NCBI GenBank assembly: GCA_017506865.1 | Contig: JAFCMP010000087.1 | Coordinates: 1 to 64,000 of the forward strand | Direction of reading: 5' to 3' | From: Tribonema minus | Taxonomy: Eukaryota; Sar; Xanthophyceae; Tribonematales; Tribonemataceae | DNA: 64,000 nt | Notes under the pieces: generated by a model | The model's input: the letters and a program-made list of their open reading frames with translations, nothing else | Told to the model about the DNA's origin: nothing | Database searches by the model: none | Program-made: the position numbers and the translations under genes | In this document: positions 16,652 to 33,504 of the stretch, one piece after another | Layout of the letters: each line of letters begins with the position of its first letter | How positions within the stretch are numbered: position 1 is the first letter of the stretch

Positions 16652-16756
16652 TTACAGGCGGTCCACAAGGTTGCAGTAGTCCTCCAGGGTGGGAGGATTG
16701 ATGTTGAAGTACTCGTTGGTTTGTGAACCGTACAGGCAGGTGTGGCAGTTTGTGAG

Positions 16757-17167
16757 TGAAGCAGCTTACCTTGTGATGCTGTCATGGATGCAAACAAGCA
16801 AGCTGGAAGAGCAAAACAAGTAGACACGCTTCAGAGAACTCAAATGAATGTTGTGCGAAAGGAAACGCGATGCGCTCACCGGATGTCTTATTCTGCTGCT
16901 GAGAGAAAGAAGGCTTGGGCTGGACGATGGCCGGCACAGCAAGGTTCGGGCTTGCTGCTTGCAGGGGAGGTTCTGATGCTGTGCATACTACTTTGATGTG
17001 TCCTTTGGCATGTGACCCAACTAGTTGCACCTGCCTTCAACTAAGGTCAGGCCAGCTCTCAATCACATGTCAAGGTCTACACCGACTACACAGGTCTACT
17101 GAGACCTGTGCCAACCTGTGAGGTGTAACTGCCTGTAACTGTCTGAATACACCCCCAAGCCGTATCA
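16757..17167 (-). repeat. 3' LTR of the gypsy element
   Basis: 411 bp, 99.8% identical by eye to 31,770-32,180. On the minus strand it starts TGATACGGCTTGG and ends GCTGCTTCA. Confidence 0.92.
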
Positions 17168-17186
17168 GATCCCCCTTCTTTGCTGA
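17168..17186 (-). other. Polypurine tract of the gypsy element
   Basis: Immediately inside the 3' LTR the minus strand reads CAGCAAAGAAGGGGGATC, a purine run suited to plus-strand priming. Confidence 0.7.
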
Positions 17187-17409: not shown

Positions 17410-17892
17410 CTACTTCGCACTCTCCTCTGAGGATATACTGCGAGCGGCGAGCACGTTCCATGATGAGTATGGGCTGTCTTTTGGTGTGCGGTAGTCACCC
17501 GGACGTAAGCGCATACGCCTGACAGTCTTCTCACCGTCGAATAGTACATCAAACGTGAACTGCGACCTGGCGGGGTAAAACTCACCCAGGACGCCGCGGC
17601 TCCAGCCTGTTGGAAAGTGATACCAGATCACTTCACCCTCAAAGTCTGATCCGAAATCAGATGGCAGTTTGGGCAGCCTTACCAGCGAGATCTGCGGCTG
17701 AGCAGAATCTTGGGCTGAGCTTGCCTCAGAACTAGTTTGGGAAGATGGCAGACCTCGCGTGACCTGAGAGTTGGGACTTGCACTACTCGCGCTGTCCGGC
17801 GCGCTTTGCGCCTGCAACCTCTTGGCTTTGTCACGCACTGCCTCTGCCAACTGTATGGCAGACTTGACCTGTGTACGGGTCATCTGTTCCAC
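17410..17892 (-). CDS. C-terminal Tudor-like module of the gypsy polyprotein
   Basis: About 160 codons overlapping the end of the RNase H/integrase ORF by 13 bases. It is probably the same polyprotein displaced by one base: the upstream frame ends RIRYEDGEWNR-stop, whereas the joined reading gives YEDGE-VEQMTRTQV, natural for a Tudor/Agenet fold. A Ser/Gln-rich linker follows. A second Tudor-like unit (EVIWYHFPTGWSRGVLG..., FTFDVLFDGEKTVRRMRL) then carries aromatic and acidic positions typical of chromatin-reader barrels. The likely role is steering integration or the complex to chromatin; this is inference from fold-like pattern only. Confidence 0.6.
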   Translation of the reverse strand: MEQMTRTQVKSAIQLAEAVRDKAKRLQAQSAPDSASSASPNSQVTRGLPSSQTSSEASSAQDSAQPQISLVRLPKLPSDFGSDFEGEVIWYHFPTGWSRGVLGEFYPARSQFTFDVLFDGEKTVRRMRLRPGDYRTPKDSPYSSWNVLAARSISSEESAK

Positions 17893-20800
17893 TCACCATC
17901 CTCATATCTGATCCTCCAGTATGGTGACACAAAGTTCTTAACGGCCCCCCACACGTAAGTGATCGGGCCGCCCACTACCGTTCTGTGCTCCCTGACCAGC
18001 GCTGTGCCGATGGGATAGAGTTGCAGCGCGCTCTCTCGGCGCATGCCAGCATCCTCCTTAGGTGTGGGCCTGATGGCATATGCCGGCAACCTTCCTTCGT
18101 TGCGCAGCTCATAGAGCGCGTGAAAAGCGTCTAAGGTCCATGGCGTCACTTCTTGCAGCATGTCATCTTCTGACACCCACGCATGTGACTTGCCATCTAT
18201 GGACTGCCATTTGTACTGCCACGAGCTATTGGGGCCCGCTTGGCGGTCTAGAACTCTGTATAACTTCTCACCATCTGCTAGCTCCTCCACCTGTCGGGGG
18301 CTTAGCATGGCGTGCACACCTGCCAGTGGTTCCAACATGGCACTAGGCCTCATGTGGAAGGGCTTCATGTTCTCAACATGAGCTGTGGTGTGTCTAACTC
18401 TTCTGCCCATCATCCTGCAGGTGAATGAGAGACCTGATTCGCCCGTGCGAGCCTCGATCTGCCAAGGCCCCACATACCTGGCATCAAGAGCAGCCGACCT
18501 GTCTCTTTGCCTGGGCAGCCGTATCATGACATAGTCACCGACGGCGAACTTCACCGCGCGCTTAATAGCTTCATTGCGCTTGGTGATCTTCTGGGCGCGC
18601 ACTTGCAGCGCCTTTGACACCACTTTGTCTGCAAGCTCAAGCATATCTAACTTGTGCTCAATCTCCTCGTGCAGGTCAAACTTCCTGCTGCCATCCTCGT
18701 GCATAAATGCATCATGTGGCAGTGAAGCTTCCCGACCGTACACACAGAAAAAGGGTGTTAAACCTGTTTCACCTCTGGGCGTTGTCCTCAGCACGAACTG
18801 CACAAGCTCTAAGCCTTCGTGCCAGTTGGTCTGCTGAGCGCTGACCCAGGACGCTAGTGCCTTCTTGGCACGACCATTTGCATGTTCCGCCACACCATTG
18901 GTCTGGGGGTGGTAGGCACTGGTTTCTATGCGTTTCACTTTGAACGCTTTGCAAAGGTCCGTGACCACATTGCCTAGGAAGACCTTGCCTTTGTCAGAGC
19001 ACAGCTCCTCCACTAGTGCTCCAATCTCAAGGAACACCGTCATGAGGTGCGGGGTAACGTCGCGCGCTCCCTGGCCGCGCATGGCCGAGAGCTCCACGAA
19101 GCCCGACCTCGCTTCCACTATGGTCAGGACATACTTGTGCCCTGCCGTAGATTGTATACCAGGCTCTGTGATATCTATGTTGAGCCGCTGCCACATACGC
19201 ACGGGCTCAGCCAACCACTGTCTGTACTGAGTGGAGCTGGCGCGTTTGCGCTCTAGGCACGTCATGCAGCTCTGCACGTATGTTCGTATGTCCGCGCCCA
19301 TCCCAGGCCAGAAATATCTCTCAAATATACGCGTGTGCGTAGCGCCTATGCCGCAATGCATAGCGCTCGCGTCATCATGCCCTAAACGCATGACTAGGGT
19401 TCGTAGCACCACTGGCACGACCCACTGCACCAACACCATACCTCTCTTGGGGTGGCTTGTTGAACTGTGCACTAAGAGGCCATCTTCCTCGATGGTATAC
19501 TGTTCTCTCTGTGCTAAGACATGAGCGGCTAGCTCCGCGCCTTCGGGTATGTCACCCTCAATGAGCATCTTGCTCACTGCTTGACAGAAGCCGTCCGCTT
19601 TCTGAACTTCAAGAAATGCGGCTCTGCTGAGCATTGCTGGCGTGGCAGGCGAGTCTCCCTCGGCCACCCGTTTCAGCAACTGCACTACTTCTGGCCTTGG
19701 TAGCGTCTTCTTGCGCTTGCCTAAAACAGCTTCGCCATCCGGTGGCTCGTCTGCCTCATCTGCATCAGCAGCAGCTTCTACCTCTGGAATTTCTCCTTCT
19801 TCCAATGAGTCTGCCGCCGGCTGAGCCGTGGTGACGCCGCACTTGGCCCTCTTTGAGCTAATGCTGCGTCGCCTGTCGCATGCGATCTGCCTTAAGAGTC
19901 GCTGCGCTTGGGACTGCTCCCACGAGCCGGTGTACTTATTGACTGGCTCTGCGTAAGCTGTGTTGATCTCAACATCAACCTCAGCTTCCTCCACCGTGGA
20001 GTCATCTAGCCTTCTGTCCAACAACTGCGCTAGCTCCACAGCTGTCAGAGCGGCTGACCTAGCGGCCACTACGCCTGATATGGCGACGGCCTCGTTGAAC
20101 TTGAACGCTGGCCCGTAACATGCATCCGCCGTGTACCCACGACAGCTGTTCACGTCGGCCACCTTGTGCGTTCTCGTGGCCTCGTCCGCAAAGCGCACAC
20201 CTGACGGCGGTGCGTCCATGCTCGGGACTGCGTCTGGCCACAGTTCGTCTGCTGGCTCCGTAGAGCGCTCAGCATCTAACTCTGCCTGCTGCGGCAGTCT
20301 GGATGGGGCATCAGCATTGGCATTTCTTTTTCCAGGCCTGTGCTGAATGGTAACGTCATACTCCTGTATGCGCATGGCCCATCTTAGTAGCTTGCCGTTG
20401 TAGTCTTGCAACGTCAACAGCCACCTGAGCGCTGCGGCATCTGTGACCACTGTGACAGGGTTACCCCAAATGTAAGGCCTGAAGTGGTTGAGCGCCAGCA
20501 CTACTGCCAGACACTCTACTGCCGTCGCTCCTAACTTCGCGTCAGGTTCAGAGTTCAGCTTGCTGAAGTAGCCAACGACTACTTCTCTGACCTCCTCGCC
20601 TTCAGCTATGCGGCGCCTGCCCGTGTGAGCATATGGCTGTCCCGCTGTTGCCCTTTCGACCTCACTCACAGGTCTAAACTGTGTAAGCACACCTGCCGTC
20701 GCCGTCTTGGAGGCGTCGGTGTACAATACGAAAGGCAAACTGAAATCTGGGTGCATCACTATGCGACTGTCGCACATGGCACTCTTCAGCCGCTTGAAAG

Positions 20801-21116
20801 CCCGCTCCTGCGCAGACCCCCAAACCATGACTGCTTTGTTCTTGGTCAGGGCTACTATAGGCTCTGATATCGCCCCAAAGTCGGGTACATACCGCCTGTA
20901 ATAGTTGAACACTCCCATAACCACTTGTACCAACTGCTTGTCGGGTACCCCGCCTTTCAGTGGGGGGCTCATGTCAAGCATGGCTTTGACCTTGTCAGGG
21001 TCTGGTCTTGTTCCAGCAGCGCCAACTATATGGCCCAGGAACTTGACTTCAGCTTGGAACAGCTGACACTTCGGGCGAGACACGCTCATGCCCGCCGCGC
21101 CTATGCGGCCAAGCAC
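17880..21116 (-). CDS. Gypsy pol, second part: RT thumb, RNase H, integrase, chromo-like domain
   Basis: Retrotransposon polymerase section, 1,078 codons. It opens with the RT connection (KCQLFQAEVKFLGHIV, near residue 20). RNase H follows (YTDAS near 135, ECLAVV, TDAAALRWLL, ending HRPGKRNANADAPSRLP). An acidic spacer leads to integrase: an HHCC zinc motif (H-x-H...CMTCLERK near 580-620), then catalytic D in NIDITEPG (~643), D in SDKGKVF (~707) and E in NGVAEHANG (~740). After a GDYVMIRLPRQRDR / YVGPW barrel comes a chromodomain-like stretch (EKLYRVLDRQ...YKWQSIDGKSHAWV near 965-1,000), then a Tudor-like unit. RT is split from the preceding ORF by a one-base shift at about 21,110, since EEHIEQL should continue into SDVLGRIGAAG. 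Confidence 0.93.
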   Translation of the reverse strand: MLGRIGAAGMSVSRPKCQLFQAEVKFLGHIVGAAGTRPDPDKVKAMLDMSPPLKGGVPDKQLVQVVMGVFNYYRRYVPDFGAISEPIVALTKNKAVMVWGSAQERAFKRLKSAMCDSRIVMHPDFSLPFVLYTDASKTATAGVLTQFRPVSEVERATAGQPYAHTGRRRIAEGEEVREVVVGYFSKLNSEPDAKLGATAVECLAVVLALNHFRPYIWGNPVTVVTDAAALRWLLTLQDYNGKLLRWAMRIQEYDVTIQHRPGKRNANADAPSRLPQQAELDAERSTEPADELWPDAVPSMDAPPSGVRFADEATRTHKVADVNSCRGYTADACYGPAFKFNEAVAISGVVAARSAALTAVELAQLLDRRLDDSTVEEAEVDVEINTAYAEPVNKYTGSWEQSQAQRLLRQIACDRRRSISSKRAKCGVTTAQPAADSLEEGEIPEVEAAADADEADEPPDGEAVLGKRKKTLPRPEVVQLLKRVAEGDSPATPAMLSRAAFLEVQKADGFCQAVSKMLIEGDIPEGAELAAHVLAQREQYTIEEDGLLVHSSTSHPKRGMVLVQWVVPVVLRTLVMRLGHDDASAMHCGIGATHTRIFERYFWPGMGADIRTYVQSCMTCLERKRASSTQYRQWLAEPVRMWQRLNIDITEPGIQSTAGHKYVLTIVEARSGFVELSAMRGQGARDVTPHLMTVFLEIGALVEELCSDKGKVFLGNVVTDLCKAFKVKRIETSAYHPQTNGVAEHANGRAKKALASWVSAQQTNWHEGLELVQFVLRTTPRGETGLTPFFCVYGREASLPHDAFMHEDGSRKFDLHEEIEHKLDMLELADKVVSKALQVRAQKITKRNEAIKRAVKFAVGDYVMIRLPRQRDRSAALDARYVGPWQIEARTGESGLSFTCRMMGRRVRHTTAHVENMKPFHMRPSAMLEPLAGVHAMLSPRQVEELADGEKLYRVLDRQAGPNSSWQYKWQSIDGKSHAWVSEDDMLQEVTPWTLDAFHALYELRNEGRLPAYAIRPTPKEDAGMRRESALQLYPIGTALVREHRTVVGGPITYVWGAVKNFVSPYWRIRYEDGEWNR

Positions 21117-24100
21117 ATCACTAACTGCTCGATGTGCTCCTCGATGTCCGTGCCATACACTAACACGTCATCAATGTATACTAGTGCGTGGGAGCCTAAG
21201 GCATCCCCAAGCACTTGGTGCATCAACCTTGTGAACTGCGCTGGCAGATTCACTAGCCCGAATGGCGCCACCTTGTAGTGCCACAACGAGCCGTCTGGGG
21301 CTCTGAAGGCCGTCTTGGCCTTAGCCGTCTTGGCCAGTGGGATCTGATGGTAACCCGCTGCCAGATCTAACGAAGATAAAATCCTCGCACCTTGCACAGC
21401 CCGCATCATGTCGTCCATGTTGCCTAAGCCATGACTATCACGCTTCGTGACTGCATTCAACTTCCTAAAGTCTATGCAGAAGCGGATCTTGTCGCCTTGA
21501 ACCACTAGCACTGGGTTGCTTGCCCAAGCACTGTCTGATGGCTCAATCTGTTGGCGCTTTGCCATCATCTGAATCTGTTTCATGATGTACTCGGCCTCTT
21601 TGAAAGCCCAATGGCGTGCCTTGTCCGCCACCGGCTCGGCCGTCTGAGTGTCAACATCAATTTCAAAATGCTGAGTGACTCGAGGGTTTTTAGGGTCCTT
21701 AGCAAAGACATTTCTGTGCTTTTTGAGCATGTAAAGTGCTTTTGTTTTTAAAAGTACCCCATCTTTCCCCCTTCCTTGCAAATGAGGCGCAAGCTTGCCA
21801 TCTTTCACAAGGATTTCCTCCAGCTCTGCATCTGTGCAGTTTTCTAGCTGGTCATTGTGGCGCTGGCTGAGGTCTGCCAGCCGTTGCACTTCTTGTGCAA
21901 CCTCTTTGGCAGTCTTGCCTATGCTAGCAGCTAATTCTGCCACTAACTTAGCATTTTCAGAGTGCCTTCTGGCTGCTATTACTAGCAGTTTGGCTTCTAG
22001 AGCCCGCTGAGTAGCCGTCTGCACTTCTAGCAGATCATCAGCATTAATTGGAGTTACTTTTCCCCAATACGTGTTGCGGCGCACGTACACCGGGTACATT
22101 GAAGTATTGCTCAATGTAGCGTATATTGTGCCGCTGGCATTTACAGTGAGAGCGGTGATATTTGCCTTAACACCTTTGCCTCTCATCATATCTGTGGTCA
22201 CTGTTTCTTCTGGTATGAGCAATGCCTCATAGGGCTGCACGCGCTTTGGCTTTGGTAGCAGCGTGAGCTCCACAATCGTCTCCGACGATGGTGCCAGTAC
22301 AGTGTTATATGCCATCCTGGCTGAGCACTGCTGAGGCTTGTCTGGTGCCTCAGTGCTCTCAGCGCTGCCATTGCCCTTGCAACTGGCTAGTGCTGCCGCA
22401 CGCGCGTTCGCGTTGTCTGCGCGATTCTTGTCGTGCATGGGGCGTATGGCCACACCTTTGAGTCCCCCTGGGAAGAAGGCTGGGCTACCGCCGTGATACG
22501 AGATGACTGAGCCATGCGGGGCAAAGAAATCTGTACCTAAGAGCACGTCCATGGGTGCGTTCACCACATAGAACTTGTGCAAGAACATCTTGTTCTTAAA
22601 CCGCAGCCATGCATTGACCACACCACTGATCTGCAGCGACGTCTTGCCGTCTGCCAAGAGGATCTCGGTGTAGTCACCTTGTTGAGGTGCACATACATAG
22701 CTGTTGGGGAGCTTGTCCGCAATGCGCTTGCCCATGATGGTTACGGTTGCACCGCAGTCTACCATCGCGCGCACATAGAGCTCTTTGGGCGTCCGTGAGT
22801 TGCTTTGTACACGTAACGACGCGGACACAAACATCTGCCCTGGAGGTACAACACCGGCTACTGGGCGTATGTACTCCACGTGAGCCTCCGACTTGGAGCG
22901 CTCTACCGAGCTAGGCTCGCTGGACCCTACTGCAAGGTCCACATGAGGTAACTTGACTGGTTCCCTCTGCTTTGCGATCTCTTCTGTGAGATTCTTAATG
23001 GTCTCTGCCACACTCACTGGTGGGGCTGTGTCTAACTTACTGACACCTGGCACATGGTCTAATATGCCTAGAGACTGAGCATCAAGGCCAGCGCGCCTGA
23101 GCGCTGCCTTCAGCTCACCTGGAGCCAGGCGCGGGTCTGTACCGCCGCCGAGCTTCTTGCGCGCCGCTGCGGCCGCAATGGGTGGAGCACTGATTTCTGT
23201 GTCAATGTCCATGTCGTCTGCGCTACTGCAAACGCTCACAACTGACTGCGAGTCCCACTCAGAGCCAGAACCTGAGTCAGAGTCATCAACTTCTATGATG
23301 TCAGCCATGCCGGGCTGCACCACAGCCAAGTCTACCTCTGGCTCTTCCCATGCACTGCGCATTGGAATTATGGGTACCTCTGCATACCCTGCATCATGCG
23401 CCTTTGCATGTATGCTACGCGCCACTGCTGCTGAGCAGTGTGCACTTGACGTGGGCGCTGCGTGTACCGCGGTAGCGGCCTGTACCAGCGAACCACTCTG
23501 ACCAGCCAACCAAGACGGGGGTGGGCAGTCAACTGAATGCCTCAACGTAGAGTCTGACCTACGCGGCAAACGTACCTGTTGTTCTGGCAGTGTGCACAGG
23601 CCCGAGGCCTCTATTGCCACGAACAAGTGAAATGCCATCTCTGGGATGAACAAGTCTGCAATGTAACGCCGTACATCACTACTGCATGCACTCGCTGGTA
23701 ATTCATGATGATAAGTCATGAGCACTGCCATTTCCGCAAGCGACAGCAAGCGGGCAGATGCCACTGGACCAGCGTCCTTTGCATGTGCAACATAACTTGC
23801 AGTGGGCCTACCAGGCAGTCTGCGCACTGGACTAGGCAACAAACCATCAGCATCTAAAACACCAGGGTGCTGAGCACTGCGCGGTTGCAAGAAGAATGTG
23901 CGTTCGGGGCAGCGCAAGCGAGAGCGAACAGATGTGGGTCTGTTTTGTAAACGCTTGGTATTTATTACCGCACCGAACCTCTGGAGTGCTTCACGTGAGG
24001 CCACCCCTGCTGGTACTATGACAATGTACACCCTCTGCCTCCTGCAAGGTACTTCAAACTCAGAAGCCTTTAACTTGGCGATGTACAGCATGTAACCAGC

Positions 24101-24319
24101 TGACTTGAGAATGCGTACTGCGCGTGCAAACGCGCGTGACACTAGCACTCCTGGCACATTCTCGTACAACACCACCCGAAGCTTGGCCCGCACGATGAGC
24201 CGCGCACTCGGCAGCTTCGCCCTCGGCCCTCTTGCCCTCTGCTGAAAACTCTGTGCAGGGCGGGGAGATAGTGGTGATGTCAGGTTTCTCGTCAAGAAGA
24301 CGTGCAACAACTTTCGCAT
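21101..24319 (-). CDS. Gypsy pol, first part: methyltransferase C-half, aspartic protease, reverse transcriptase
   Basis: 1,072 codons in three parts. Residues about 35-240 carry the second half of a cytosine-5 DNA methyltransferase: VVLYENVPGVL (motif VI, ENV), CRRQRVYIVIV (motif VIII) and a C-terminal SLAEMAVLMTYH...DLFIPEMAFHLFVAI resembling motifs IX-X. Residues about 490-610 are a retropepsin-like protease with active site AMVDCGATVTIMG and the later VLLGTDFF flap partner. Residues about 840-1,070 are RT: DFRKLNAVT, SSLDLAAGYHQIPL, FGLVNLPAQFTRLM and the catalytic YIDDVLVYG (21,163-21,189). The first ATG lies in sequence shared with the upstream ORF. This frame is best read as downstream of a +1 shift near 24,215 within the methyltransferase, not as an independent start. 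Confidence 0.92.
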   Translation of the reverse strand: MRKLLHVFLTRNLTSPLSPRPAQSFQQRARGPRAKLPSARLIVRAKLRVVLYENVPGVLVSRAFARAVRILKSAGYMLYIAKLKASEFEVPCRRQRVYIVIVPAGVASREALQRFGAVINTKRLQNRPTSVRSRLRCPERTFFLQPRSAQHPGVLDADGLLPSPVRRLPGRPTASYVAHAKDAGPVASARLLSLAEMAVLMTYHHELPASACSSDVRRYIADLFIPEMAFHLFVAIEASGLCTLPEQQVRLPRRSDSTLRHSVDCPPPSWLAGQSGSLVQAATAVHAAPTSSAHCSAAVARSIHAKAHDAGYAEVPIIPMRSAWEEPEVDLAVVQPGMADIIEVDDSDSGSGSEWDSQSVVSVCSSADDMDIDTEISAPPIAAAAARKKLGGGTDPRLAPGELKAALRRAGLDAQSLGILDHVPGVSKLDTAPPVSVAETIKNLTEEIAKQREPVKLPHVDLAVGSSEPSSVERSKSEAHVEYIRPVAGVVPPGQMFVSASLRVQSNSRTPKELYVRAMVDCGATVTIMGKRIADKLPNSYVCAPQQGDYTEILLADGKTSLQISGVVNAWLRFKNKMFLHKFYVVNAPMDVLLGTDFFAPHGSVISYHGGSPAFFPGGLKGVAIRPMHDKNRADNANARAAALASCKGNGSAESTEAPDKPQQCSARMAYNTVLAPSSETIVELTLLPKPKRVQPYEALLIPEETVTTDMMRGKGVKANITALTVNASGTIYATLSNTSMYPVYVRRNTYWGKVTPINADDLLEVQTATQRALEAKLLVIAARRHSENAKLVAELAASIGKTAKEVAQEVQRLADLSQRHNDQLENCTDAELEEILVKDGKLAPHLQGRGKDGVLLKTKALYMLKKHRNVFAKDPKNPRVTQHFEIDVDTQTAEPVADKARHWAFKEAEYIMKQIQMMAKRQQIEPSDSAWASNPVLVVQGDKIRFCIDFRKLNAVTKRDSHGLGNMDDMMRAVQGARILSSLDLAAGYHQIPLAKTAKAKTAFRAPDGSLWHYKVAPFGLVNLPAQFTRLMHQVLGDALGSHALVYIDDVLVYGTDIEEHIEQLVMCLAA

Positions 24320-24500
24320 CAGTCATGCATGCAGTCATTGTGGGCACTTCTGAATGAACTTCATGCAGAGCCTCAATTGCTTTGACGTTCTTGTCAACTG
24401 CAAGCACTGTGCGTGTCACAAAACCTGCTCTGGAGGTCAACTTACCCCCAGCTATGGCGCCTCCTAGCGCCCCACAGCAGATTGACGCGTGTGTCATGAC
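23600..24500 (-). CDS. DNA cytosine-5 methyltransferase domain embedded in the gypsy polyprotein
   Basis: The enzyme family transfers methyl from AdoMet to C5 of cytosine in DNA. Motif order on the minus strand: I (HASICCGALGGAIAG, AdoMet binding, 24,490-24,445); a GFVTRTVLAVDKNVKAIEAL strand resembling motif II; DITTISPPCTEFS with the catalytic Cys of motif IV (PPC, 24,263-24,255); VLYENVP (VI, about 24,163-24,152); RRQRVYIV (VIII, about 24,045-24,020); and a C-terminal IX/X-like helix (to about 23,600). Spacing is compact (about 290 residues) with a short target-recognition region. Motifs I-IV are in the gag frame and VI-X in the pol frame, so one base separates two halves of one enzyme. 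The key catalytic residues are present in what I can see. Activity is unproven. Confidence 0.85.
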
Positions 24501-27355
24501 CCTGGGTGGTGGCTCCGGCCCACCCTCAGTTGCCGCTACCTGCGCGTGCAAAGGGACTTCATTGACAGCGTCATTTACATGTTCAGCGCTCTGTGCTGCA
24601 CATGCATCTGCTATAACTACACCAAGCAATTCACTGGTTGCTGATGTTGAACTTGCGGCAGGCAAGTCACTTTCTACCGAGGCAGCAGACAACTGCAAGT
24701 GTGACTCACCGTTGCGGCGCTTGTCCCTGTGCTCGATGCACTTCTGGCAGGACTTCTTGTGACGCATGAGGTCTTCCCAGTTACCCTGGTCAACCCCACA
24801 ACCACGACACTTGTAGTTCTTGGGCTTGCCGCCGCCGCCGTTGCCGCCGCCAGAGCTTGAACTGCCCTGCGGCGCGCTAGAGTTGAACCCAAGCTCGCGA
24901 CGCTCGTCTGTAGACAGCCCCGCCAACATTGCGCGCGCTGCTGCGAGCTTGCCCTTCTTGGGGCGCCGTTCGGTGCTGACAACGCTCCACCCGTCCCTGT
25001 TCGGACGCTTGCCTGCGTCAGAGCGGGAGGGCGGTGAGATGTATGTTGCAGCCATAGCTGACACAACAGTCCTGATCTCACGTTCGCCGACCGGCGCCGC
25101 CTGCCACCTCTGCTGGGCAGTGGCTACCACCTTGGGAAAAGCTATATTCTGCAAATCCCATGTGTCATGCATGCCATTGACTTCTTGGCGGCAACACAGT
25201 GGCAACTCATGCACGAACTTCATGCGAACAATCTGCTGGTTGTCCGCGCAGCCTGCATCATGTGCAGCTGCCACCACCTCTCTGCCCCACACTTCGGGAC
25301 TGGTGCCAGAGGCACGGGTGAGCTCGTGATACCTCTGTAGCGCGATCTGCCTGGCCGATGTACTGTCATACGCTGCTGTAAGACACTGTACCATCTGCTC
25401 ATACGTCAGGTCACTGAACGAACGGGTCTCCAGAACCCCTGTACGCTCATTTTTGATCATGCTAGTCAAGTCAGAGTACTGACCCCTGGTAAGACTCTGC
25501 AGAAGCGCTTCCGCGTACGCCGACTTAGGCACACCGCGAGTGTTGCAACTGCGCTCAAAGGCCCTCACTGAGGCCTCGAGTCTCCCGACTTGTGTCACTA
25601 TGACCACGCCAGTGCCGCCAAAACCCCTAAGGTCTACCTTGGGTTTGCGTGCTGACATAGCGACTGAGGAGTACGAAGGTGTGAGTGCCCCCGCATCCTT
25701 CACTGACTCACCTAGAATCGATGCGCGTGCGAGCGCAGCCGCGTCGGCCACGTCATCGCTCACGCGCACCCCAAAAGCCAGAGTCGGCGGCCTGACCGCC
25801 TCGTCCGAACTGGACTCGCAGCCGCCGATGAGCTCCTCCACCTCCGGCATGGGGTGGGAGATCAGCCTGCGCGGGTAGCTGTCCGAAGCTTTGCGAGCCT
25901 CCTCGGTGACGAGCGGAGTGCGCTCGATGTCCTTCGTCATCTTGCTTAACTCGGACTCATCACCGCTGTCATCTCCAAAGGCAAAGTGACACCAGCTGCG
26001 CGAAGAAAAGCGCCTGGCACCCACTGTCAGCAAGTCACCGTACTTGCCGGCCTTGAAGTCGTGACCTCTCTTCTCGAGGAGCGCTAAGTTCTGATCGCGC
26101 GCCTCTTGGGCCTGCTGCGCCGCATGAGCCCGAGCCACTGGCAACAGCCGAGACCTGATCTCGTGCTTGTCGCCCCTGCTGAGGGCCTCGGTGATGCGCC
26201 GCTTTGTATTGCCGAGGTACTTATGGCTATCGCGCTCGGCAGCTCCCGCTGCTTTGGCTGCGCGCCTAGCCTTGTCGGCAGCTCTGCTGTGCTCAGTGAT
26301 GAGGTTTTCGATACCCTCTTTCCACTGCACATACATCTCTTCCGTGCCTACCGGGTCAAAGGGTATGCCACCCTCGCCCTCGGACGACTCGGAAGTGTCA
26401 GGCAACGCACGTGCCACCTGACGCTGCTTGCCGCTTCGCACAACTGGCGATGACGGCGCAACTGGCGCCTCGCGTGGCATAACTGGCTCACGCAGCGCGG
26501 CCGCAACAACCGCACCCTTGCGCGGCAACGTCAACAGTGACGAAGCCATGGCCTTCGCTGGAGCCTTAGCAATTGCAGTGGGGTAGGCTGGAGCCTTCTG
26601 CTTAACCGGCAGCTTCGGGCTCTTCGACGTACTGACCACCGGTGACACCTCAGGTGCACTCGGGGCTTGCGCACTGCGCTCAACTGACGTCTCGGTCGGC
26701 TTACTGCGCGCGACCTGCTGTGGGGTCACCCCTGGGGCAACAACTGGGGCTGCCGCGACCGCCGCGGGCACTGCCGGCTCAACTGGCTCGGCTACTGGCG
26801 CAACTTGCGCGGGTGTTGCCACAAGTGGTGTCTTACGGGGGAGGGTGGACTGTGCGAGTGTGCTAGCTATGGCTGCTTGCGAACTGGCTGCCTCTACCTC
26901 GGCGATCTGGGCTATCGTGGTGGTGATGCCCGCCAGAGCAAACAACTCAACCATCCTCTGCCTACGCAGGTGTCCCGCTACCAAGGACTCTGCCGCCGTG
27001 CCACCACCCTTGGCATCGTCGGAGAAGTCAGCGAAACTGCGTATGATAGGGGGCGCGGCACCAACAACTACTGCTGGTTCTGGGGACCGTGCCGCCGCGG
27101 ATGGCGCTGGGGAGTCGGACGCACTGGCACCGACCTGCTGGCTGGGTCTGCGACAACTGCTGCCGCGGGCCGTGGAGGGGGGCTTGACGGCGTGTCGCCC
27201 GAACTTGACTCAGGCGCGGTACGCTTGGTGAGGCGCTTACCGCCCTTGTCAGCCGAAGCAGCAGCGCGGCCACTAGGCCTAGCGCCACCACTAGCACCTC
27301 CAGTGCGGCTTGACCCACTTGGTTTGGCTTTGGAGCCATGGCCTGTCTTGGCCAT
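24060..27355 (-). CDS. Gypsy gag with zinc finger, running into the methyltransferase N-half
   Basis: Capsid-type protein. Translation probably starts at ATG 27,355 (MAKTGHGSKAKPSGSS..., Ser/Pro/Arg-rich). A frame change near 27,140 then leads into the long open frame (IRSFADFSDDAKGGG...VAGHLRRQR) that runs to 24,060. An Ala/Pro/Val-rich region and a Lys/Arg-rich helix precede a retrotransposon gag domain (YAEALLQSLTRGQYSDL... to FVHELPLCCRQEV). A Gly-rich linker and a Cys/His finger follow (YKCRGCGVDQGNW, HKKSCQKCIEHRDKR), a nucleocapsid counterpart. The C-terminal ~100 residues carry motifs I and IV of a cytosine methyltransferase. The final ~60 residues after PPCTEFSAEGKRAEGE look out of frame. 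Confidence 0.88.
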
Positions 27356-27374
27356 ATGGTGTATCCTGCATCTT

Positions 27375-27433
27375 GTGCGTCCAGGTGTTGTCGACACTTG
27401 TGCCATGCACGTGTCTCGGTACCTGTACGACAT
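27375..27433 (+). repeat. Hairpin motif, copy a
   Basis: Consensus GTGCGYCCAGGTGTTGTCGA...TCTCGGTACCTGTACGACAT. In this copy the inner stem is GACAC/GTGTC and the outer stem AGGT/ACCT. Confidence 0.75.
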
Positions 27434-27709
27434 CATCATAAGCATGAGTTGCCTCACTGCTGTGTTTATGAACTACGCTAGAAACTACACACCTTACGAC
27501 TCCTGAGACCTCAGTTCCACATGCCCATGTGCTGTGTGCAAACCCATATCAAATGAGAGCATAGCCAGCGGCCAAAGGCAGTGGAGAGAAGTCCTGTCAG
27601 GAAGTCATGGTGTTGGGTATCTTGTATAGAGCACAAAAGGCATGTCGTGTACCAAGCGGTTACACAACCCTACTTCAACAACGGCTCCACCTAGGGTCGC
27701 CTCACCACA
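27434..27709 (-). repeat. 276-bp LTR-like repeat, downstream copy
   Basis: Nearly identical to 30,537-30,812. It directly abuts the hairpin motif ending GTACGACAT at 27,433. Confidence 0.85.
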
Positions 27710-28191
27710 CACGCCCCCTGCATGGCGCTTCTGCTCCGCAAGTGGAAAGACATGCACACATGTGAGGTGCCCTAGGTGCTACACACTCAGTATCTCTACG
27801 AATGCAAGAACAGCAGCCCTCCGCTACCGCCGAAACTCTCGAAGAGAACGCGGGCGTCTGGCATATACCACTAACCCTCCGCTACCACCAAGTCTCAGAA
27901 AGACTGCAGCGCGTCTGGCCGGAGTAGTACCTGCGTTGCTGCAAACAATACAATCTTACTGCTGCAGCACAAAAACAAGTTTGAGCAAGCAACTTGCTCC
28001 GCTGCTATATGCGCCCCCGACATGTTGGCACTGCGCAATCAACGCAAGCAAACACACCACCATTCTACTTCAACGTACGCCCCCGACATGTTGGCACTGC
28101 GCACTAATCCCCCCCCAGCGTTTGTGTCGAACACACGCGCAAAACAAGTGCGCGGTGGCCGAAACAATCTTTAGGGTGGGCGGGTGGGTTT

Positions 28192-28250
28192 GTGCGTCCA
28201 GGTGTTGTCGACACTTGTGCCATGCACGTGTCTCGGTACCTGTACGACAT
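28192..28250 (+). repeat. Hairpin motif, copy b
   Basis: Same 59-bp sequence as copy a, in the 3' flank of the coiled-coil ORF. The following bases (CGCCCCCAGACACTACACTG) match the flank of copy d. Confidence 0.75.
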
Positions 28251-28427
28251 CGCCCCCAGACACTACACTGCTGAGCCTATACCGAAGTAGTGTGGTGTCT
28301 AAAACGTACAGGCCCAGAGATAGACCTGCAAAACGCCTCCTGTCACGTCATTGCTAACGTGCAATATGCCAAGCGCTGTCATGTGTAACTGACCGAGCTG
28401 AGCAGGCCTAGCTACTCCGAGTAGTAC

Positions 28428-30230
28428 TCAAGGTGTATCTGTAAGACACATGGCACAGAGAAGAGCTGCTGCTGTGTGTGTCTCACAAACATCAGCGCAA
28501 TATGCGCTATGATGAGGAGCCTGATTGCTGCGGAGCGCCACAGCTGCGCTTGAGTGTGCGCCGCTGTGCGCACCTGCTGCTGCCAAGTCTGGCGGCAGCT
28601 GCGCGCCATCGCTGCCTCCCGCCTTGCTGACGCAGCGCGTGAGCATCACCTTGCGCCTCGCCTGGCGATCGCGCAGATGCTGCTGCTCCTCAGGCGTGTA
28701 AGCCGCCCAATACTCCCTCCTTTTCTGCTGCCGCCGTGTGAGCGGCCGCCCGACACTGCCGCCGGCCGCCGCGCTGTACGCCCGCCTGATGCCGCGTCCT
28801 CCCGCGTGCGCCGGAACGTGCAGCGCTGGCGTGCCGCTGTTGCGCGGAGCGCTGCTACCGCGCATGCAGCTGCTGCTGCTGTTGCCGATCGCGCCGCCGC
28901 CGCTGCCGCTGCTGCCGCTGCCGCCGCGCGTGCTGCCGCCAGTACCGCCGTGCCCGCCGCTGCCGCACACGCTTCCGCCGCTAGCACCGCTGCCGTGTGC
29001 ATCGCCGCGCGCGTCGTTGCAGCGAGCATCGCTGTGGCTGCTATTGCTGCGCGCGCCGTCGCTGCTGTTGCATGCGCCGCTGCTGCTGGGAGTGTCGCCG
29101 CTGCCCCCGCACATGACTGATGTAAGCGCCGCCATGGGCGCTAATGTTAGCGCCGCCGTGGGCGCTGATGTTGCAGCGATATCAACACCGCTGATAGCAT
29201 CTCCACCGTTAGCACCCGTGTTTGTGGGCACACGCGCTGCCGCAGCGGCCGCCTGCGCACAAGCAAGCTGCTCACGCAACGCCGCGCTCGCACGCGCTCC
29301 CGCATCGCACACCATGTGTAGGTGCACGCTTTGAGCGTCAGCTGCAGCAAGCCGCTGCTGCAGACCTTCCGCAAACGCTCTGCTGCTAGCAGCATCCTGC
29401 TCCAGCTCCGACACCCGCCTCCGCATTTGCGAAAGCAATGCTGAATCGTCAGCTGCTGCACCCTGTTGCTCACGCTGACGAGCGGGTGCTGGGATGCTGC
29501 TGGCCGCTGGTGTCACGGTGCTGGCTGATGAAGTGGTAAGCGACGCAGCCTGCACTGCAGCACGCAGGCCAGCATTCTGCGCTTCCAAACGCTGAACCTG
29601 CTGCTGCAGCTCCACTGCAAGCATAGCTGCTGCAGACGACTCCAGCTCCAGCACTCGCGCCTCCAGCGTACCTCGACGCGCTGAGCCCTCTGCTAGCTCC
29701 TGCTCCAAGTGCGCTTCCCCCTGCTCTAGCGCCTTGATGCGAGCCCACAGTCGGCCCTCTCGCCCGTCCGCCTCCTCCATCCGCTGCTCTAGGCGCTCGT
29801 TTACGCCTGTAAGCTGCTGCTGCAGTTGTTGCTGTTGCTGCTGGTGTAACTGCTGCTGTTGCTGTAGCCGCTCTTGCATCTGCTGCTGCATGTGTAGCTC
29901 CGCCAGCCTTGCCGCTACCGCTGCCTCCTGGCTGCTCACTGTACGATCTTGCAGCTGCAATACCCTCAGGTTTTCCTCAGCGACCCTTTCTTCTGTCTCC
30001 GCTAGACGCGTTTTGAGTCGTCGCTGAACACCAATTAGGCGCTCGCTGTCTGTATAGAAGTGCTCCAATGCATCGCATACACTCCAGAACTGCGGCTCAA
30101 TCTGCGATCCCTTCATTTCCTCCATTCGCTGCCAGCTGCTGTATGGATTTCGTCCAACTGTGACAAGCCAGTTGTGAATTTCCAATGCCTCCTCACGACT
30201 TATAGCAGCACGTTCCTCCCCCCACACCAT
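28428..30230 (-). CDS. Coiled-coil protein with conserved C-terminal module (element-borne, function unknown)
   Basis: About 600 residues from ATG 30,230 (MVWGEERAAISREEALEIHN); the open frame extends slightly upstream, and an AG at 30,235 would suit an acceptor. Long coiled-coil heptads and a poly-Gln patch occupy roughly residues 75-320. A Ser/Gly-rich low-complexity region follows. The C-terminal module (GRPLTRRQQKRREYWAAYTP, then EEQQHLRDRQARRKV) is basic and helical, and the tail ends SAYCADVCETHTAAALLCAM-CLT. The plus-strand ORF at 40.9-42.8 kb shares this module, tail and 3' flank but not the N-terminus. A coiled coil followed by a basic module could be gag-like (assembly plus nucleic-acid binding); that is a guess. 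I do not recognise a named family. Confidence 0.65.
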   Translation of the reverse strand: MVWGEERAAISREEALEIHNWLVTVGRNPYSSWQRMEEMKGSQIEPQFWSVCDALEHFYTDSERLIGVQRRLKTRLAETEERVAEENLRVLQLQDRTVSSQEAAVAARLAELHMQQQMQERLQQQQQLHQQQQQQLQQQLTGVNERLEQRMEEADGREGRLWARIKALEQGEAHLEQELAEGSARRGTLEARVLELESSAAAMLAVELQQQVQRLEAQNAGLRAAVQAASLTTSSASTVTPAASSIPAPARQREQQGAAADDSALLSQMRRRVSELEQDAASSRAFAEGLQQRLAAADAQSVHLHMVCDAGARASAALREQLACAQAAAAAARVPTNTGANGGDAISGVDIAATSAPTAALTLAPMAALTSVMCGGSGDTPSSSGACNSSDGARSNSSHSDARCNDARGDAHGSGASGGSVCGSGGHGGTGGSTRGGSGSSGSGGGAIGNSSSSCMRGSSAPRNSGTPALHVPAHAGGRGIRRAYSAAAGGSVGRPLTRRQQKRREYWAAYTPEEQQHLRDRQARRKVMLTRCVSKAGGSDGAQLPPDLAAAGAHSGAHSSAAVALRSNQAPHHSAYCADVCETHTAAALLCAMCLTDTP

Positions 30231-30536
30231 TTTGCTGCAAGCAAGAAGGCGTGCACGTGCTGTTGTTGAACCGATGCCGGCGTGCACCTACGGTTAGGCA
30301 CGTCGCTGCACGCCAAAGCAGCGTTGCTGCTGCTGTTGCTGAACTGAAGGTGGCGCAGTAGTGTCGCTGTAGCTCGCCACAACTAGCACACGCCCCCAGC
30401 TGTTGAAATCCCGAAGCTCCGCCGACTGCCCCTGCTTGATGCTGCAGCACGAGCTCAACGGAGCTTGGCGCCGCGTACTGCTGCGCTAAGCCTTCCCAGC
30501 GTGTCTCCTGGCTGGCTAAAGACTGCCGAGATCTGC

Positions 30537-30812
30537 CATCATAAGCATGAGTTGCCTCACTGCTGTGTTTATGAACTACGCTAGAAACTACACACCTTAC
30601 GACTCCTGAGACCTCAGTTCCACATGCCCATGTGCTGTGTGCAAACCCATATCAAATGAGAGCATAGCCAGCGGCCAAAGGCAGTGGAGAGAAGTCCTGT
30701 CAGGAAGTCATGGTGTTGGGTATCTTGTATAGAGCACAAAAGGCATGTCGTGTACCAAGCGGTTACACAACCCTACTTCAACAACGGCTCCACCTAGGGT
30801 CGCCTCACCACA
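30537..30812 (-). repeat. 276-bp LTR-like repeat, upstream copy
   Basis: Direct copy of 27,434-27,709. Confidence 0.85.
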
Positions 30813-31769: not shown

Positions 31770-32180
31770 TGAAGCAGCTTACCTTGTGATGCTGTCATGG
31801 ATGCAAACAAGCAAGCTGGAAGAGCAAAACAAGTAGACACGCTTCAGAGAACTCAAATGAATGTTGTGCGAAAGGAAACGCGATGCGCTCACCGGATGTC
31901 TTATTCTGCTGCTGAGAGAAAGAAGGCTTGGGCTGGACGATGGCTGGCACAGCAAGGTTCGGGCTTGCTGCTTGCAGGGGAGGTTCTGATGCTGTGCATA
32001 CTACTTTGATGTGTCCTTTGGCATGTGACCCAACTAGTTGCACCTGCCTTCAACTAAGGTCAGGCCAGCTCTCAATCACATGTCAAGGTCTACACCGACT
32101 ACACAGGTCTACTGAGACCTGTGCCAACCTGTGAGGTGTAACTGCCTGTAACTGTCTGAATACACCCCCAAGCCGTATCA
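31770..32180 (-). repeat. 5' LTR of the gypsy element
   Basis: Direct repeat of 16,757-17,167 with one visible difference in 411 bp. Promoter and polyadenylation signals are expected here, but I could not place them confidently. Confidence 0.92.
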
Positions 32181-33504
32181 TGAGGAAGGCCGCTACTATG
32201 TATAGCTTTGCAACAGGCACCTGGAACAGCTTCATCTTCTTCTTAGCGTCGAGCAGCGGGAAAAGGCTTAACTTAACACCAGCCCAAACACCCACTCAAT
32301 ACAGATGCGAGCCTTAGCCATATGCAAATTATCCCTCTGCTGCTGTGGAGTCAGCACTGCATCCCTCCAACCCCTCCTAACATGGCTGAGCAGCGCATAG
32401 GCCTTGTCACCAAACACTTTGAACTGCCTGGCACGATTTGACTGAGCCTGAGCTAAGCGCTCGTTTAACTGCGACTCTGTCATGATATACGAATCATGGC
32501 GTCGTCCAGATTCTGGGCCAAACAAATCCACTATAAGGCCATTTGGCATCTTCAATCCCTGGAATTTAATGCCATGCACGCGCTTGTGACCTGAGTACAC
32601 TTCGCGCTGGATATCCTCATGGCCCTCAAGTCGACAACAGGGTCTGACCTCTCCATCCACAAACCCTACAACGTCAGCAAAGGCCTGAGGTACCTGACAT
32701 TTGGTGGCAATTTTTGCTGCATACCGAGGAAAATCGTCGACCCAAACCTTCAGGCTAACTCGCAAGACAGGCCCAAACTTCTCAAAGATATAAGCCACCA
32801 TCCACTTGACGACACGACTGATCTGAGTGTGATCCCTACCCCAAAACTCGATGAGATCGGTGAGGCGTGACGGGGTGGTCAACCGTGATAGGAATATCAT
32901 GAGAGCTTCATCCGTCGGATAAACGCTGCGGTTCTCGGTGACTATGAAGTCTTCCGGCAGCCGCAAGGCTTTTTTTAAACGAGCAAAGTCGGGCCTGCGC
33001 AGCCGCAACCAATTGTAGCACTGTGTGTCGTCCAGGTCGGCAAGTGTGCGACTGTAATGCACACGGGGAGCCAGGTACAGCGGGAGCGCATGGTACAGCT
33101 TACTGCGCATCGCCAGCAGCCCGATCGCAGCGAGAGCCAGCGGCCGCACCTGGAAATCGCGTCGATAGTCCTGCATGTAGTAGCGCTCTCCGGGGCGTTC
33201 TCGCTGGTGCTCCGCTACATCTGCTGCCAGCAGCACCGCTGCGCAGAGAAGAAGCCGCCTGCTCTGCACTCTTTCCCGAGCACATATCGCGCCAGCTCGC
33301 AACCTTAGGGATGTACGCCTAATGGTGTTGCGGTATTGGACCATGCCTGATGCTACGGCCTGCCAATCTCACAACGTGGTGCCATCCACCACGCGCTTGT
33401 GTGTGCAATTTTTGATTTCACGTCAAAAGCCCTGCCCGAGGCCTTTTGACGCGAATCTGTAGCCGTAATTTTGGCGAGCGGCAATTTTGCCGCAAAAACG
33501 TTGG

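Follow-up and report, generated by a model that had tools for sequence, protein, structure and literature searches.

A cytosine methyltransferase domain inside a Ty3/gypsy Gag-Pol polyprotein

A 15.4-kb retrotransposon of the Ty3/gypsy type, with long terminal repeats (LTRs), lies on the minus strand of the 64-kb stretch of DNA analysed here (positions 1 to 64,000 of contig JAFCMP010000087.1, hereafter the window), and a C5 cytosine methyltransferase domain is fused into its Gag-Pol polyprotein, a point we regard as practically certain. An earlier sequence-only reading of the window had placed such an enzyme between the gag zinc finger and the protease, and this is borne out by matches to the Pfam profile PF00145 (DNA_methylase) and by the conserved motifs. 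Our preferred explanation as a whole, which comprises the domain, its fusion, its origin and a role directed at the element itself, has in our judgement a probability of roughly 0.5.

In the window, the domain is divided between two open reading frames (ORFs), and each half aligns where expected along the profile. The gag-frame ORF matches PF00145 with amino acids 834-920 (profile positions 5-81; E 0.0051; 16.7 bits, below the curated cut-off of 22), and the pol-frame ORF with amino acids 39-101 (profile positions 95-160; E 2.7e-7; 30.8 bits, above the same cut-off). By direct reading, we confirmed the motifs that had been claimed, namely I (SICCGALGG), IV (SPPCTEF in the window, SPPCTDF in other copies), VI (ENVP), VIII (RRQRVY) and the IX/X-like motifs (SPVRR..GRP and ADLFIPEM). 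The interval first proposed, 23600..24500, is corrected to about 23590-24485 on the minus strand. The methyltransferase is split over two frames because 14 nt are missing relative to both nearest copies (C93 and C78; 98% over the query). The frame split is therefore a defect of the window copy, and the window element itself is broken in its methyltransferase.

A search of the genome for further copies with the domain returned many. One of them, L051, matches PF00145 at E 1.5e-16 within one open frame of 3224 amino acids in the fetched stretch, together with protease, reverse transcriptase (RT), RNase H and integrase. As L051 holds the domain in a single frame, no joining of frames is needed to exclude chance. 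L051 is itself imperfect, with R for G in motif I, and its RT carries an in-frame tandem duplication of 38 residues. In all five long polyproteins scanned, a single open frame encodes PF00145 (E 1e-14 to 3e-18) along with RT, RNase H and integrase. With E-values down to 3e-18 in the same frame as RT, chance similarity was ruled out, and so was a host gene beside a transposon, since the same open frame recurs in many copies. Protease, RT, RNase H and integrase follow one another in this order in the window ORFs and in L051, which places the element in Ty3/gypsy by domain order. Overall, PF00145 scored 43-78 bits in ten loci, which represent families A (that of the window), B, B2, C, D, E, F, G, H and I, and only 21.9 bits in J. 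The PPC, the ENV and the motif VIII arginines are kept in the copies read of A, C, D, E, E2, F, G and I; B has APC, and within family A the loci L038 and L040 are without the exact RRQR string.

Purifying selection on the domain

The domain of family A is under purifying selection. Its 25 open copies form 300 pairs, and the 253 pairs with a synonymous divergence (dS) above 0.02 gave a median pairwise ratio of nonsynonymous to synonymous divergence (dN/dS) of 0.17, these pairs not being independent of one another. Between the window and L051, dN/dS was 0.11 over the first 150 codons of the pol frame, which belong to the methyltransferase, and 0.07 over the next 150, of which about a third do. 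The former value is like those of the protease segment (0.06) and of the RT-region and third-ORF segments (0.00-0.26), the integrase included; the linkers had 0.25. Deeper pairs gave domain values of 0.19 (B/B2), 0.19 (E/E2), 0.26 (A/I), 0.24 (G/G2) and 0.23 (C/D), and RT was more constrained than the domain (0.09 vs 0.23 for C/D). For J vs J2 the ratio was about 0.15 over 319 codons, at a dS of 1.5 that is near saturation. The pair F/F2 stood at 0.57; in F2 a stretch is duplicated and a stop comes early.

Copy number and three RT lineages in the genome

The PF00145 profile search of the 158-Mb genome returned 378 candidates, and all 123 of the 123 scored exceed the cut-off. Among the 30 loci fetched from this list, four were not retroelement-like in the parts viewed: a DNMT2-like locus (L004) and three free dcm-like ORFs (L001-L003). 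The window's own family A was sampled at 28 distinct places (31 loci, three of them second loci of one place), of which 24 are open through the domain and four, including the window, are broken. The retrotransposon family is young and multicopy.

Starting from RT, we found the domain upstream in 43 of the 53 places taken among 97 listed (50 at ≥92% identity and three at 72-73%). Genome-wide, a methyltransferase-type match lay 1-7 kb upstream on the same strand in 127 of 149 top-ranked RT places, in a sample whose RVT_1 ranking favours certain lineages and leaves low-ranking ones outside. The 149 places derive from 151 RVT_1 matches (1416 candidates), with the second row of one element omitted and one match unlisted. 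The 127 are made up of 89 places and a further 38, the loci L067 and L068 being among the material compared.

The sequence-only reading had envisaged a single capture. That a capture took place stands, but the number is understated: three RT lineages are involved, and more than one capture is probable. RT identity is 55-91% among A, B, B2 and F, 65-86% among C, D and E, and 25-36% between these groups. Lineage I consists of A, B, B2 and F, joined by H and I through their RT identity to A (71% and 67%, respectively), and here the domain sits between the gag zinc finger and the protease wherever a protease was detected (the window and L051). In lineage II, which consists of C and D and, by its RT, E, the domain is upstream of RT, and in L053 it comes after a weak protease match (E 0.0023). 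A chromodomain (PF00385) follows the integrase C-terminally in C and D of lineage II, with 28.9 bits in L055 and 24.0 bits, just below the cut-off of 25.1, in L053; a Pfam scan did not find it in the lineage I loci L051, L052 and L054.

Lineage III makes up 52 of the 127 RT places with the domain, namely 25 of the loop-less J type and 27 J2-like ones, with degenerate motif IV. The RT of subfamily J (C33) is 37% identical to that of D and shares a 3452-amino-acid frame with a methyltransferase relic, which is without 25 residues including the catalytic cysteine and retains a motif I-like sequence and ENAP. Among the matches listed, this subfamily has about 29 rows with an identity of ≥97% and frames as long as 3455 amino acids. 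The query with J also matches the G loci at 24-25% identity, and G has GPPCTDF intact. Judging from these alignments, subfamily J appears to be a pseudoenzyme that stays conserved without its catalytic loop.

Two side observations concern the same searches. The loci L001 (C223, ~937.9 kb), L002 (C223, ~702.7 kb) and L003 (C181, ~40 kb) encode dcm-like methyltransferases that stand alone and have no introns; in the 29-row tree, L001 and L002 fall with a bacterial protein (97/91), and our guess is that all three might come from an endogenous large virus. At C311 3913-7197, an open frame of 6208 amino acids with an H-type methyltransferase and RT spans about two element lengths.

Origin and number of captures

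The domain is probably of bacterial type and not of the Dnmt3 class. Searches of the PDB with profiles of lineages I and II matched DNMT2, HhaI, a prophage-type methylase, HaeIII and DNMT1, and none of the 28 (lineage I) and 43 (lineage II) hits at E≤0.001 bore a Dnmt3 label. A Dnmt3 origin was accordingly judged unlikely; the methyltransferase trees hold no Dnmt3 row, and this placement rests on the labels of the structure hits. At least 569 of 592 candidate stretches encode relatives of the bacterial P0012 family of dcm-type C5 methylases. In the enzymes of this family, as in lineage I, VEG follows the catalytic loop and SP(T/V)xR...RP precedes motif IX. They are free-standing bacterial proteins, however, 25-26% identical to lineage I, which sits in Gag-Pol.

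In a tree of 62 rows (164 columns), lineage I together with G and one metagenome protein was sister to the bacterial family (P0012 and 23 of the 80 fetched loci) with support 98/92, and lineage II (100/99) fell outside the group so formed; G is a long branch whose placement is unsure. Combining the tree, the position in the polyprotein and the RT lineage, we favour two or more captures by gypsy lineages of this host as a fairly likely history. The other possibility is a single entry into one gypsy element, after which recombination carried the methyltransferase into further lineages and it diverged. This agrees with a larger group, weakly supported (89/50, 62-row tree), that unites the retroelement domains with the P0012-like family. 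Likewise, when lineages I and II were forced into one clade, the approximately unbiased (AU) test did not reject the constraint with 62 rows (p 0.10), the value with 29 rows being 0.041. Nevertheless, the bacterial family separates lineage I from lineage II at 98/92, the domain occupies different places in the polyprotein and the RTs are merely 25-36% identical between lineages, so that we consider a single capture unlikely.

A possible self-directed function and its rivals

As part of Gag-Pol, the methyltransferase would be packaged together with RT and might be freed by the element's protease. It would most likely methylate the element's own double-stranded cDNA, perhaps also the insertion site, before or at integration, and a new copy methylated in this way may not be seen as foreign or may be set in a chosen chromatin state. 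Our choice of the element's own cDNA or target DNA as the substrate is tentative, at a little under even odds.

Several observations weigh against this explanation. Over the gag-frame part of the methyltransferase (65 codons), dN/dS between the window and L051 rises to 0.45, and the preceding segment has 0.41. In 22 of the 149 RT places no domain was matched; some of these score like B2, whose methyltransferase places are known only among the matches listed, and some are near contig ends. The catalytic motif is altered in H (LC for PC, in a 3129-amino-acid frame), B2 (SC) and J2 (RC, in STRC), one copy of each having been read, and in J the catalytic loop is missing from a frame that is still long. 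Since a changed catalytic motif goes together with a long open frame in some families, not every lineage needs catalysis. As to footprints of methylation, CpG is not depleted in the element (observed/expected 0.81 vs 0.81 in the rest of the window). Singleton transitions at CpG (26/562) exceeded those at other C/G (54/1819) 1.56-fold, which is not significant (p 0.06). In 4-mer counts of lineage I, no palindrome fell far below background, the largest drop being that of TCGA (0.98 vs 1.19).

The domain might instead act mainly on host DNA or on the DNA of rival elements, silencing competitors or the surroundings of new insertions. The lineage II chromodomain, above its cut-off in L055, could bring the enzyme to chromatin, and the high copy number in the PF00145 search would also suit such a role. 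The CpG ratios speak against it, since that of the element resembles those of the rest of the window and of the light-harvesting gene loci (0.73-0.95; other elements 0.79-0.99), and we hold this alternative to be improbable. We think just as little of the possibility that the domain is kept as a part of Gag-Pol that binds nucleic acid or S-adenosylmethionine and is no enzyme. The loss of the whole catalytic loop in J, the constraint on its remainder relative to J2, the near-identical copies of J with their long frames, the large share of lineage III among the RT places with the domain and the LC of H would all fit such a part. The catalytic residues kept by A, C, D, E, E2, F, G and I, with L038 and L040 in A as the exceptions, point the other way. 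Methylation of RNA (primer tRNA or genomic RNA), as by DNMT2, is least probable of all: the lineage I profile has its best solved-structure matches in DNMT2 tRNA methyltransferases (E 3e-10) and the lineage I domain adjoins the gag zinc finger, but the trees set DNMT2 apart on a long branch of its own (100/100), with the dcm-type methylases nearer.

Apart from this, GGCC appears under-represented in lineage II (L053, L055 and L057; observed/expected 0.64 vs 0.90 for the background), which could reflect codon bias or the trace of a GGCC-specific methylase.

More broadly, the chances seem to us about even that in this alga a bacterial-type C5 methyltransferase is a standard part of Gag-Pol, captured at least twice, placed at different positions in the polyprotein, carried by the majority of high-scoring gypsy elements and preserved in one lineage as a pseudoenzyme that has lost its catalytic loop. 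If true, most methyltransferase genes of the genome would be held by retrotransposons and not by the host, and they could shape the methylome. Retrotransposons are usually silenced by cytosine methylation, and elements that carry the enzyme themselves are therefore a paradox. The different enzyme class, the position in the polyprotein, the probable repeated capture and the dead but conserved version would offer comparisons within one genome that separate a need for the enzyme from a need for the fold.

Relation to described elements

The closest described system is KnitGypsy-Dnmt3 of Klebsormidium nitens, which has a Dnmt3-class methyltransferase and a DIRS-like repeat structure (PMC5890265). 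Like it, the present elements have a C5 methyltransferase within a Gypsy Pol polyprotein, intronless and under purifying selection; unlike it, they are dcm-type, with ordinary direct LTRs, in another host group and in several lineages. The capture thus looks independent of that in Klebsormidium, as the earlier reading had considered possible, since that enzyme is of the Dnmt3 class (PMC5890265) and no hit here was labelled Dnmt3. The traits of a methyltransferase-encoding retrotransposon in de Mendoza 2018, namely an intronless coding region, conserved key residues and purifying selection, are all found here. SymbioDIRS-Dnmt3 and SymbioLINE-Dnmt of Symbiodinium are likewise retrotransposon-borne methyltransferases, with hundreds in one algal genome, but they belong to DIRS and LINE elements and to the Dnmt3 or an orphan class, in contrast to the present Ty3/gypsy elements (PMC5890265). 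In yeast, the Symbiodinium DIRS Dnmt3 domains methylated CG de novo, and the result for the Klebsormidium gypsy domain was negative and inconclusive (PMC5890265). Two earlier reports of RT-linked methyltransferases are cited in the same paper.

Further accounts concern retrotransposon-embedded Dnmt3 in streptophytes and dinoflagellates, plus orphan classes (PMC12344493), and an Ectocarpus DNA transposon with an adenine or N4-cytosine methyltransferase (PMC12477816). An orchid Ty3/gypsy element with an m6A demethylase also has an accessory enzyme in Gag-Pol, though a different one (PMC9289625). Stramenopiles, red and green algae and charophytes are said, with reference to others, to have Ty3/gypsy and DIRS elements that carry methylases (PMC6338049). 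These are possibly of the same kind and host group as ours; the passage lumps adenine (DAM) with cytosine (DCM) types and describes no such element. The claim of a new host group is weaker because that statement may overlap with the present finding. In the open-licence PMC literature searched, dinoflagellates and a charophyte are the organisms with described cases, besides the vague statement on stramenopiles and other algae (PMC6338049), and no description of a dcm-type enzyme in a Ty3/gypsy element of a chlorophyll a/c alga was found.

Relatives beyond this genome and the host group

Among metagenome proteins, P0001-P0006 are lineage II-like (E 5e-147 to 1.5e-67) and P0121-P0123 lineage I-like. 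Related sequences exist elsewhere, since these proteins are 32-68% identical over the matched parts to the first query sequence, P0002, P0004, P0121 and P0122 being at 57-68%. P0122 also holds a stretch resembling the linker downstream of the domain. P0001, a relative of lineage II, has a predicted structure of the methyltransferase type (mean predicted local distance difference test, pLDDT, 76), which is best matched by MET1 (template modelling score 0.46), DNMT1, a prophage methylase and Dnmt2. The lineage I fragment P0121 also matches C5 methylases, matches that carry little weight because its model is poor (pLDDT 57). Viral contigs gave distant matches alone (22-36% identity), and no protein scored when the whole polyprotein was searched against a set of 5.8 billion.

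The host had been thought possibly a chlorophyte, which it very probably is not. There are 92 light-harvesting matches in the genome; one of these proteins is best matched by FCP chains (chlorophyll a/c), and another by the LHCI chains of 9vfj (multi-repeat proteins), followed by ACP and CAC chains. The 18S end presumably is ochrophyte-like.

Structure of the window element and its surroundings

The coordinates are given in Table 1. The LTRs of the window element are direct repeats that differ at one position, and the 4-bp TGAG on both flanks is a target-site duplication; both features were established in the window copy. The reading frame changes once more between RT and RNase H, where the pol-frame and third ORFs overlap by 16 nt in different frames.

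Table 1. Features of the Ty3/gypsy element in the window.
Feature	Position	Strand	Basis or remark
5' LTR, 411 nt, TG...CA	31770..32180	-	410/411 identical to 16757-17167
3' LTR, 411 nt	16757..17167	-	pairs with 31770-32180
Target-site duplication TGAG, right copy	32181..32184	.	matches 16753-16756
Target-site duplication TGAG, left copy	16753..16756	.	matches 32181-32184
Candidate polypurine tract, purine-rich, adjoining the 3' LTR	17168..17181	-	by eye
Gag-frame ORF, 974 amino acids, TTG start as listed; zinc finger and first part of methyltransferase	24060..26984	-	ORF list, Pfam; zinc finger by eye
Methyltransferase motifs I to IV, gag frame	24225..24485	-	PF00145 positions 5-81
Pol-frame ORF, 1072 amino acids; remaining methyltransferase, linker, protease, RT	21101..24319	-	ORF list, Pfam
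Methyltransferase motifs VI to X, pol frame	23590..24205	-	PF00145 positions 95-160 over 24017-24205; C-terminal end from copy comparison
Retropepsin-like protease	22523..22774	-	PF13975 E 1.1e-4, below curated cut-off
RT	21113..21493	-	PF00078 E 2.3e-18
Third ORF; RNase H, integrase H2C2 and core, weak SH3-like match	17880..21116	-	Pfam
Gln-rich, coiled-coil-like ORF, 619 amino acids, between 5' LTR and gag	28428..30287	-	ORF list

The element looks mosaic because the N-terminal ~720 codons of gag (24800-26984, window vs L051) are far more diverged than the methyltransferase-pol part, with a dS of 0.8-1.7 vs about 0.1. The Gln-rich ORF is probably a separate insert. A direct repeat at 27373-27709 recurs as 28190-28251 and 30537-30812, interrupted by ~2.3 kb that hold this ORF. 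Rfam and tRNA scans of the window gave no matches. Beside the 5' LTR, an ORF at 32268-33344 on the minus strand encodes a DDE_Tnp_4 transposase (E 6.4e-16).

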